A stretch of DNA of 64,000 bases from contig NZ_JARKMR010000002.1 of the NCBI RefSeq assembly GCF_029350975.1, forward strand, positions 124,001 to 188,000, in the 5' to 3' direction. The translations under genes were made by a program, and so were the position numbers. Positions 39,856 through 54,006 of the stretch are shown piece after piece (within the stretch, counting starts at the first letter, position 1; each line of letters opens with the position of its first letter). The notes beneath the pieces are model-generated. The model was given only the letters and a program-made list of their open reading frames with translations, was not told the DNA's origin and did no database searches. Source of the DNA: Maribacter zhoushanensis (GTDB taxonomy: Bacteria; Bacteroidota; Bacteroidia; Flavobacteriales; Flavobacteriaceae).

Positions 39856-42084
<2,229 letters not shown>

Positions 42085-42107: not shown

Positions 42108-42180
42108 CGATTTTCTAAAAGTTTTAAAACGTGCAAATGCCTTAATATTTCAGGCTTGGGAAGAAGTTTTGTTAAATAAC

Positions 42181-42220
42181 AAAAGCCATATCAATGTACG
42201 CATACAATGATATGGCTTTT
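42181..42220 (-). terminator. Terminator of the ncRNA candidate
   Basis: A 13-bp perfect stem (AAAAGCCATATCA 42181-42193 with TGATATGGCTTTT 42208-42220) and a 14-nt loop. Read on the minus strand it ends the non-coding stretch; the T-run is short, so it could also act in both directions. Confidence 0.8.
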
Positions 42221-42556
42221 TAGAAAAAGTTTACGGACAGTTTGTTCTAATTTTTCATTAGAACGGCAACCCTTGATTGCACCCGCTTCACTAATTCAAC
42301 GTTATAAAATGTTTTTCGATTCTCAGGTACGTAACCCAACATCTACACATCACTTCTTTTTGCTGTCTTTATCGTAAAATAGAAACCTAGTATATAGTCT
42401 TTCTATAATTCAATTGTCTTAAAGGCTATAAGCGACAGCTTGTAGACTTAAGATTTACCTCTTTTAATAAGTATTAAAAGATTTGGTCTAACAACAATAC
42501 GACAGAACGTAAACTCCGTAGCAGTCTAAAATTGGATTTTTCGTCCTTCCAATTTT
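42181..42556 (-). ncRNA. Candidate structured non-coding RNA between rplS and icd
   Basis: The 642 bp between icd and rplS hold no ORF, yet ~375 bp show nested complementarity. Long-range helix 42228-42235 with 42508-42515 (8 bp) closes a ~285-nt region. Inside it: hairpin 42244-42251/42257-42264 (8 bp); helix 42362-42367/42434-42439 with continuation 42369-42372/42428-42431 after a small bulge; hairpin 42460-42468/42473-42481 (9 bp). A 9-bp hairpin (42528-42536/42548-42556) lies at the presumed 5' end and a terminator at the 3' end. RNase P (GAGGAAAGTCC), tmRNA (T-arm GGTTCGA, CCA end) and SRP signatures were looked for and not found; 6S RNA is not excluded. Extent and strand are inferred. 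Confidence 0.55.
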
Positions 42557-42621
42557 TTAACTACACTACAATTTACGAAAAAATACAATTCAAAATTAAA
42601 AATTGTAAACTTTTATTAATC

Positions 42622-42660
42622 AACACATTATGAACATGTGTTATTCACTTTTGTTCATAA
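42622..42660. promoter_or_regulatory. Interlocking inverted repeats upstream of ncRNA candidate
   Basis: AACACAT (42622-42628) with ATGTGTT (42636-42642), spacer 7; and TTATGAAC (42628-42635) with GTTCATAA (42653-42660), spacer 17. The two dyads share sequence, so they are mutually exclusive as RNA hairpins, or could be a protein-binding site. They lie between the rplS terminator and the ncRNA 5' end. Confidence 0.4.
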
Positions 42661-42663
42661 AAA

Positions 42664-42693
42664 AAGCACTGTATCAAAAATGATACAATGCTT
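42664..42693 (-). terminator. Terminator of rplS
   Basis: Stem AAGCA-C-TGTATCA with TGATACA-A-TGCTT (one mismatch), AAAA loop, and a T-run on the minus strand. 21 bp past the rplS stop. Confidence 0.88.
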
Positions 42694-42714
42694 CATATTA
42701 TAAGGAAGAGAAAT

Positions 42715-43065
42715 TTATCCTCTTATCTCTTTAATTCTAGCTTTCTTACCGGTTAATTCACGGAAGTAGTAAATTCTAGATCTACGTACTTTACCACGCT
42801 TGTTAACTTCAATTTTTTGAAGTGCAGGTAAGTTTACAGGGAAGATACGCTCAACACCTACAGTACCTGACATTTTGCGGATAGTAAAAGTTTCTGTTGA
42901 ACCAGAACCTCTACGTTGTATTACAACACCTTTAAAGAACTGAGTTCTTGTTTTTTCACCTTCCTTAATTTCGTAGTACACAGTAATTGTGTCACCAGCA
43001 GAAAATTTTGGAAAATCTTTTTTAGTTACGAACTCGTCTTGTACAAATTTTATTAATGATTCCAT
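42715..43065 (-). CDS. rplS: 50S ribosomal protein L19
   Basis: L19 (116 aa from ATG 43065) sits at the subunit interface. Seen: 'MESLIKFVQDEFVTKKDFPKFSAGDTITV', 'GEKTRTQFFKGVVIQRRGSGSTETFTIRKMSGTVGVERIFP' stretches, 'KRGKVRRSRIYYFRELTGKKARIKE'. The frame is open for 24 more codons upstream but these include the 5' leader, so the internal ATG is chosen. trmD lies upstream; rplS has its own promoter, unlike the rpsP-rimM-trmD-rplS operon of E. coli. Confidence 0.97.
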   Translation of the reverse strand: MESLIKFVQDEFVTKKDFPKFSAGDTITVYYEIKEGEKTRTQFFKGVVIQRRGSGSTETFTIRKMSGTVGVERIFPVNLPALQKIEVNKRGKVRRSRIYYFRELTGKKARIKEIRG

Positions 43066-43134
43066 TGTATAGTTAATTGGAATTAAATTAAAGCAACATT
43101 CACGATTATCGTCAGAGGTTGTTCTAACAGGGTG

Positions 43135-52581: not shown

Positions 52582-54006
52582 TTAAGAAAATTTCTTAGTT
52601 AAATCATCAATGTATTTGCGAAACTGCTTATCGGTTTCTGCTAAATTGTCTACAGTCTTACATGCATGTAAAACGGTTGCGTGATCGCGCTTTCCAATTT
52701 GTGAACCAATACTTGCTAATGAAGCTTTTGTAAACTTCTTGGCAAAGAACATTGCTAATTGTCTTGCTTGTACAATGTGCCTTTTTCTTGTTTTAGATTG
52801 TAAAGTGGCAACATCCATTTCAAAGTAATCAGAAACTACTTTTTGTATGTAGTCAATAGAAACTTCGCGCTTGGTATTCTTCACGAATTTTTCTACAACT
52901 TGTTGGGCAAGTTCAATAGTAACTTCTCTTTTGTTTAGAGTAGACTGTGCAATCAAAGAAATGATAGCGCCTTCTAATTCTCTAATATTGGTTTTAATAT
53001 GTTTAGCAACATATTCTATGATGTCTTCGGGTATTTCTACACCATCTCTATATAATTTGTTCTTTAAGATAGAGATTCTTGTTTCATAATCCGGACTCTG
53101 TAATTCTGCTGATAATCCCCATTTAAAACGAGAAAGCAAACGTTGCTCAATATCCTGCATATCTACAGGAGCTTTGTCAGACGTAAGAATTACTTGTTTA
53201 CCATTTTGGTGTAAATGGTTGAAAATATGGAAAAATACATCTTGTGTACCAGATTTACCTGATAAGAATTGTACGTCATCAATAATCAATACATCTATTA
53301 ACTGGTAGAAATGAATAAAGTCATTTCTAGTATTTTTCTTAACAGATTCAATATACTGTTGTGTAAATTTCTCTGCAGATATATAAAGAACTGTACGTTC
53401 AGGATATTTATCTTTTATTTCCACACCAATAGCATGTGCCAAGTGTGTTTTACCAAGACCAACACCACCGAATACCAATAACGGATTAAATGATGTGCCA
53501 CCTGGTTTGTTTGCTACCGCCATACCGGCAGATCTTGCCAAACGGTTAGAATCACCTTCTAAGAAGTTGTCAAAGTTATAATTAGGGTTTAACTGTGATT
53601 CAATTTTTATATTTCTAATACCTGGTATTACGAACGGATTACGTAACTCTGGATTTTTAGATTTAATTGGCACATCCATTTCTTGAGCAGCCATAGCACC
53701 TCTGTTAGAACTAGGAATCTTTTCTGTAAAAGGTTCTTTGTTGCCATAGGTGTTTTCCATTCTAATGATATAGACCAACTTTGCAGATTCACCTAACTCT
53801 TTTGTTAAGGCTACTTTTAAAAGTTTAACATAGTGTTCTTCTAGCCACTCGTAAAAGAATTTACTAGGTACTTGAATACTTAATGCGTTTTCTGAAAGCT
53901 TAATTGGTTTAATGGGCTCAAACCATGTTTTGAATGCCTGCGGTTGGATATTATCCTTAATAAACACCAAACAGTTTTTCCATACGGAATTTGCAGTAAC
54001 ACTCAT
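52582..54006 (-). CDS. dnaA: Chromosomal replication initiator protein DnaA
   Basis: DnaA (474 aa): domain I (1-85), a linker (~86-140), AAA+ domain with Walker A GGVGLGKT at 180-187 and IDDVQ at 242-246, 'RLLSRFKWGL', and domain IV with 'KRDHATVLHACKT' near 444-456, the DNA-binding helix. It unwinds oriC. No cluster of DnaA boxes is seen in the 203 bp upstream, so the origin is probably elsewhere. First gene of a three-gene minus-strand unit. Confidence 0.98.
   Translation of the reverse strand: MSVTANSVWKNCLVFIKDNIQPQAFKTWFEPIKPIKLSENALSIQVPSKFFYEWLEEHYVKLLKVALTKELGESAKLVYIIRMENTYGNKEPFTEKIPSSNRGAMAAQEMDVPIKSKNPELRNPFVIPGIRNIKIESQLNPNYNFDNFLEGDSNRLARSAGMAVANKPGGTSFNPLLVFGGVGLGKTHLAHAIGVEIKDKYPERTVLYISAEKFTQQYIESVKKNTRNDFIHFYQLIDVLIIDDVQFLSGKSGTQDVFFHIFNHLHQNGKQVILTSDKAPVDMQDIEQRLLSRFKWGLSAELQSPDYETRISILKNKLYRDGVEIPEDIIEYVAKHIKTNIRELEGAIISLIAQSTLNKREVTIELAQQVVEKFVKNTKREVSIDYIQKVVSDYFEMDVATLQSKTRKRHIVQARQLAMFFAKKFTKASLASIGSQIGKRDHATVLHACKTVDNLAETDKQFRKYIDDLTKKFS

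Follow-up and report, generated by a model that had tools for sequence, protein, structure and literature searches.

A predicted structured noncoding RNA gene between rplS and icd in Maribacter zhoushanensis and other Flavobacteriaceae

Large, deeply structured bacterial RNAs are few. Among these, OLE, GOLLD and ROOL are large, complex RNAs of unclear function that belong to other phyla and adopt other folds. In flavobacteria, 6S-Flavo RNA (RF01685), like the RNA predicted here, is noncoding and has its own gene, while Flavo-1 (RF01705), also of flavobacteria, is similarly unassigned. In passages of PMC9723704, the Rfp18 sRNA of Flavobacterium psychrophilum is described as being conserved in its genus. 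Here, a 64,000-nucleotide stretch of the Maribacter zhoushanensis genome (hereafter, the window) was examined for a further RNA of this kind, predicted to lie between rplS and icd.

On the minus strand of the window, trmD, the L19 leader, rplS, the rplS terminator, a DNA element, a -7 box, the predicted RNA, its terminator and icd follow one another in this order. The RNA gene is preceded by rplS (42715..43065, minus strand) and followed by an ORF (39856..42072, minus strand) for a monomeric-type isocitrate dehydrogenase, presumably icd, as it was named in the original prediction. The L19-Flavobacteria ribosomal protein leader (RF03130; Rfam match at 43094-43121) lies upstream of rplS and was found in 20 of 21 relatives' loci scanned, while the rplS terminator, a hairpin and T run with counterparts in relatives, is found at 42660..42694 (minus strand), upstream of the RNA gene. 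The original prediction, made from the DNA of the window, had pointed to a gap of 640 bp without a gene. Indeed, the rplS-icd gap measures 642 bp, and neither the ORF list nor comparison with relatives' gaps revealed a credible protein gene within it. In two relatives, Flavo-1 RNA immediately precedes the L19 leader and rplS (L217:290-429 and L233:1283-1365), such that two unassigned RNAs are able to flank rplS.

The gap was used as a DNA query in 60 genomes, the source genome included. Matches were obtained in 41, with rplS, the conserved gap and icd being consecutive in 36 of these. The five matches in the order's other families (E 1e-4 to 8e-4) adjoin neither rplS nor icd and were considered spurious, while no match to the query was obtained in G024, a genome of the same genus that is 64% complete. 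The near relatives include Maribacter, Arenibacter, Zobellia and other Flavobacteriaceae, as reflected in a pattern scan of 55 stretches. An alignment was prepared from 34 of the 36 syntenic loci, mostly from Maribacter, with L004 and L005 being omitted as close to L003. RNAalifold assigned 67 pairs to this near alignment, 30 with compensatory changes. When 65 pairs were counted across the 34 sequences, 97.4% of cells were paired and double changes were seen in 30 pairs, as compared to a mean of 14.8 (sd 1.9) in shuffled alignments, a control that does not keep relatedness, and at most 13 in slid versions, a control that keeps relatedness but favours structure derived from the same sequences. 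None of 500 shuffles matched the observed covariation on any of five measures. Adding helices P7 and P6 and the loop pairing described below gave 35 double-changed pairs out of 81 (shuffled, 18.4; slid, at most 20). The conservation and covariation of helices that the original prediction proposed to seek in relatives were thus found, above both controls.

The minus-strand fold of the gap beats 100 of 100 dinucleotide shuffles (z -4.6), as does the plus-strand fold (z -6.5), such that the strand is not given by folding alone. In the near alignment, however, G-U cells far outnumber A-C cells (196 vs 13), which points to the minus strand. A coding gap was ruled out by indel lengths, as 287 of 303 gap runs relative to the window sequence in the near set are not multiples of three; one antisense frame exceeds shuffles (51.5 vs 36.9 codons). 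The region thus displays what is expected of a structured noncoding RNA gene, namely, compensatory changes above controls, strand bias and noncoding character, and it is almost certain from these comparisons that a conserved structured noncoding RNA exists in the gap. The gene, placed at 42174..42569 (minus strand) on the basis of syntenic loci, covariation and wobble bias, would span some 390 nt including the terminator, with the 5' end of the RNA being judged to lie near 42563-42569 and the 3' end past the T run. The conservation, covariation and wobble bias, the promoter-like box and the terminator, together with the failure of any Rfam family to match above threshold, all support the proposal that the minus strand encodes a new Flavobacteriia RNA.

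All helices of the predicted RNA are given on the minus strand. P1, a 5' hairpin (42521..42564; 42560-42564/42521-42525), shows double changes in 5 of 5 pairs and is followed by P2 (42498..42520), a hairpin with a conserved loop (UUUACGUU) and double changes in 5 of 7 pairs, two of them in 15 sequences. P3, a long-range helix (42490-42497/42361-42367; double changes in 6 of 8 pairs), closes a variable central domain (42361..42497) that contains P4 (42485-42487/42457-42459; 3 of 3 pairs) and the P5 hairpin (42429-42442; 2 of 5 pairs), the loop of which includes GCUGUCGC. P7 (42306..42356; 42351-42356/42306-42311) has 4 of 6 pairs double-changed and 90.6% of cells paired, in columns picked by best pairing. 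The 3' domain (42223..42297), with covariation in a wider set of sequences, comprises P6 (42290-42297/42223-42230; double changes in 2 of 8 pairs, 90.5% of cells paired), P6a (42282-42286/42233-42237; 4 of 5 pairs) and the P6b (42266-42280; 1 of 5 pairs) and P6c (42244-42264; 6 of 7 pairs) hairpins, all values being those of the wider set. P6 is weak in the source genus, with 78.3% of cells paired in the near set.

The terminator foreseen at the 3' side was indeed encountered as a terminal hairpin and T run at 42181..42220. Its outer stem (GCCAUAUCA/UGAUAUGGC) is nearly invariant, being almost fixed in sequence as GCCAURUCA/UGAUAUGGC, while the inner stem varies and covaries. Because a terminator needs no fixed outer-stem sequence, the outer stem may be a binding site. 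The near-invariance of the terminal stem and of P6b means that these offer little evidence for or against pairing. In 21 of 24 wider rows, the P2 loop (RCGUU) can pair fully with AACGY, a pairing that varies at only one of its five positions (A-U, G-U, G-C). Although several of the helices originally foreseen in the region covary, the long-range helix said to close most of it (42228-42235 with 42508-42515) does not. In the 34 near sequences, 96.3% of its cells are paired, but only one pair is double-changed, a level reached by 226 of 500 shuffles. With the loop located by pattern, 4 of 24 wider-family rows contain the whole helix vs 7 of 10 near rows, and its bases belong instead to the P2 hairpin, P6 and P6a.

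The distribution of the RNA was considered across the family. The terminal-hairpin pattern was detected in 212 of 397 family genomes, representing 139 of 237 genera, with the reversed control yielding 0. Among 30 hairpin loci fetched, 25 contain rplS and icd, four rplS only and one neither (L271), such that the hairpin follows rplS in 29. In nearly all hits, there is one RNA gene per genome. R2, a covariance model for which 34 sequences of the 3' domain were used (16 pairs double-changed in its alignment vs 8.1 shuffled and at most 7 slid), matches 84 of the 397 genomes and 54 of the 237 genera at E 1e-6. The R1 model matches 207 of 397 genomes at E 1e-3; as its weak matches include terminator-only and reverse-strand ones, the counts rest on R2 at E 1e-6 and on the hairpin pattern. 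Of 27 further loci, with three of the source genus left out and L063 repeating an earlier genome, 25 include rplS and icd and two icd only, while all of 20 weaker hits, hand-picked from the match lists, adjoin rplS and/or icd (14 both, four rplS only, two icd only). In a separate search, 8 of 296 genomes were matched, all from Flavobacteriaceae, with the share of other families among the 296 not being given. In L065, L072 and L205, stretches of about 3 kb, no rplS precedes the RNA. The central domain changes quickly, while the place between rplS and icd is kept across much of Flavobacteriaceae.

A diverged form of the RNA, of about 530 nt, occupies the same gap in further genera. Inspection of rplS in 15 genomes (14 family members that R2 failed to match at E 1e-6, plus one genome of another family) revealed the same terminal hairpin in the gap of seven (L229-L234 and L240). 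By eye, an element upstream of the RNA (see below) was discerned in six of these seven, not in L232, and an ACGUUC loop in five, not in L232 or L234. L235 contains the upstream element twice, together with a different terminator. Hairpin, element and loop were all absent from 7 of the 15 genomes, four of them being the genomes examined of genus g146, all with a short gap of 241-296 bp; this many-species genus is, we guess, Flavobacterium. In a diverged alignment of 18 of the 24 sequences with coordinates, 65 of 101 predicted pairs are double-changed (shuffled, 34.6, sd 3.1; slid, at most 33), with G-U and A-C cells numbering 190 vs 27. R2, a model of the first clade, matches 18 of 18 diverged loci (E 2e-8 to 4e-5; 108 kb searched), matches judged to owe much to the terminal hairpin. 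The order P2, P3, P7, P6 and terminator is identical in both clades, with helix 12 of the diverged clade being the likely counterpart of P7. In light of this shared order, the near and diverged forms are, in our reading, homologous. Shorter or strongly divergent gaps that fit both clades poorly were seen in L234 (G072), L235 (G083), L251, L252, L272 and L276.

Upstream of the RNA lies a predicted promoter -7 box, TAAATT (42570..42575, minus strand), of which TA..TT is conserved in two alignments and which we take to be of the Bacteroidetes TAnnTTTG type. Further upstream, a pattern of four GTTNATAA-type boxes, three direct and one inverted, which to our eyes resemble DnaA boxes, makes up a DNA element (42613..42661, minus strand). 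The dyads earlier noted at the 5' side are hence present, yet correspond to a conserved DNA element upstream of the promoter, outside the RNA as drawn. The element was found in 86 of 92 gap sequences, some genomes being counted twice, and as it was sought by pattern, part of this conservation is by construction. With the -7 box being sought 60-112 bp from the element, the distance between the two has medians of 85, 84 and 83 bp (35 of 36, 24 of 27 and 24 of 29 sequences), with 10-90% ranges of 84-86, 83-91 and 83-94 bp. A regulon of the upstream palindrome was also considered and rejected, the strict pattern being present in 8 of 18 genomes and at the RNA locus in six; near three copies elsewhere (G182, G473 and G565), the terminal hairpin was absent within the 5 kb fetched.

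Lying on the same strand as icd, directly upstream of it in most loci, and ending in a terminator, the RNA could be a cis-acting icd leader, either riboswitch-like or an attenuator, with the terminal hairpin deciding read-through into icd. Such a leader lies upstream of and co-directional with the gene it regulates, an arrangement not seen in L208, L214, L215, L217 and L233. In these stretches of about 3 kb, the gene after the RNA terminator is convergent in L214, L217 and L233; that after the RNA is ABC-transporter-like in L215 and lipoprotein-like in L208, while a pentapeptide-like gene separates the RNA from icd in L211 (gene names assigned by eye). Moreover, icd has a conserved promoter-like box of its own (TATATTTG) after the RNA terminator. 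As the RNA is kept beside other or convergent genes, it is most likely its own unit and hardly an icd leader, a role deemed very unlikely. Its own promoter-like box, terminator and conserved unpaired stretches would also suit a large base-pairing sRNA that uses its conserved loops to bind several mRNAs. Such action has been proposed for Rfp18, the precedent for this in the family (passages of PMC9723704). Still, the size, multi-branch fold and long-range helices go beyond what an antisense sRNA needs and many loops differ between the two clades, such that this role seems rather unlikely.

A further possibility is that the box array serves replication or chromosome organisation at the DNA level, with the RNA being secondary. 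The array of DnaA-box-like 9-mers is marginally the densest in the approximately 234 kb of G001 scanned, with no cluster as dense being detected beside parS in the stretches scanned within G001:C1:1727001-1941000, while dnaA is some 10 kb from the RNA locus (52582-54006, a position seen in the window only). These boxes, the nearby dnaA and genome records that start near the locus raised the idea of the RNA locus as oriC, which was rejected. In 15 of 15 complete genomes (G001, G007, G010, G012, G032, G033, G090, G114, G199, G272, G284, G293, G313, G429 and G452), parS clusters lie 55-90% of half a chromosome from the locus, as worked out by hand. Judged by eye, rRNA genes are oriented away from the parS side in every one of the 15 genomes. 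In 13, they point to the RNA locus along the shorter arc, with those of G313 and one of three G429 operons doing so only by the longer arc. GC skew in G001 is negative in 8 of 8 stretches sampled over 0.21-1.73 Mb and positive in 9 of 11 over 1.92-4.08 Mb; finer sampling was noisy, with a second switch near 4.14 Mb, about 140 kb from the locus. Taken together, the positions of the parS clusters, the orientation of the rRNA genes and the coarse GC skew put the origin on the side far from the RNA locus, and the rplS-icd locus is therefore likely origin-distant in all 15 genomes. While such a position counts in favour of a DNA-level element, the locus is not itself the origin, its RNA helices show covariation that a DNA element would not call for, and the box-to-promoter spacing is near-constant. 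As such, a DNA-level role is highly improbable. Separately, an rRNA operon 10-14 kb from the RNA locus and pointing to it was noted in G114, G199, G272 and G429, which is unusual for an origin-distant place.

The probable role of the locus is instead that of a standalone noncoding RNA gene, the product of which acts in trans as a component of a ribonucleoprotein. Separate transcription and trans action of this type are inferred from covariation in the two clades and in the wider 3' domain, wobble bias and noncoding indels, together with the constant rplS-icd place, persistence beside other or convergent genes and promoter geometry. In such a scheme, the RNA would be transcribed on its own and work in a ribonucleoprotein, with a shared core comprising the 5' module (P1 and P2) and the 3' domain (P6 with P6a-c). 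The two parts of this core would perhaps be joined by pairing of the P2 loop (RCGUU) with AACGY, which immediately precedes the 3' domain. P3 would close an exchangeable central domain, and the invariant loop and terminal stem would be the binding site of a protein. The amount of RNA, in turn, would be set by a DNA-binding protein at the upstream boxes. It is quite unlikely, although worth stating, that an undescribed Flavobacteriaceae ribonucleoprotein machine is built around the RNA, with a catalytic or scaffolding shared core and a clade-specific central domain, and is tied to the replication cycle through DnaA-type boxes that set the amount of the RNA. Judged by its hallmark hairpin, the RNA occurs in 139 of the 237 genera sampled from a major family of marine bacteria. 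It sits at a fixed place, and its relatives in the culturable genera Zobellia, Maribacter and Arenibacter open its function to direct test.

The predicted RNA was also compared with known RNAs. At the gathering score, Rfam 15 contains no family matching the gap, in line with the expectation of a new RNA, and the 20 matches below gathering with E of 10 or less, the best at E 0.099, all involve unrelated families. In 21 relatives' loci, gathering was reached only by the L19 leaders and by two copies of Flavo-1 lying outside the gap. As originally stated, signatures of tmRNA, RNase P and SRP RNA are absent from the gap's Rfam matches (SRP RNA at E up to 10), and an ARAGORN scan of the whole window revealed no tmRNA. 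By contrast, the suggested kinship with 6S RNA was not borne out, as none of the gap's matches with E of 10 or less is to a 6S family and the genome's copy of 6S-Flavo RNA (model of 108 positions) lies elsewhere (G000:C13:313096-313206; 105 bits). No description of this RNA was found in the literature searched, including passages of PMC9723704 and PMC2864571, with subscription papers and supplements lying outside its scope; nor did the terms looked up occur in PMC11109978 and PMC8632094. With no Rfam 15 match above threshold and no literature description, what is new is hence the RNA family, rather than a proven new type of function.

Of the other RNAs mentioned above, Flavo-1 is 76 positions long, occupies a separate place and does not match the gap. 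Rfp18 is, like the gap RNA, a conserved structured RNA of Flavobacteriaceae, the two being set side by side by description. Rfp18 is kept in its genus, while g146, by our guess that genus, has just the short rplS-icd gap noted above. The OLE, GOLLD and ROOL families, which are represented in Rfam, gave no match to the gap with E of 10 or less. tmRNA (RF00023) and class A RNase P RNA (RF00010) are likewise absent from these matches, and the genome's own copies, at 149.6 and 198.3 bits, respectively, both above cut-off, lie elsewhere; what the predicted RNA has in common with these two is a multi-domain fold and a comparable length, their models having 374 and 367 positions.
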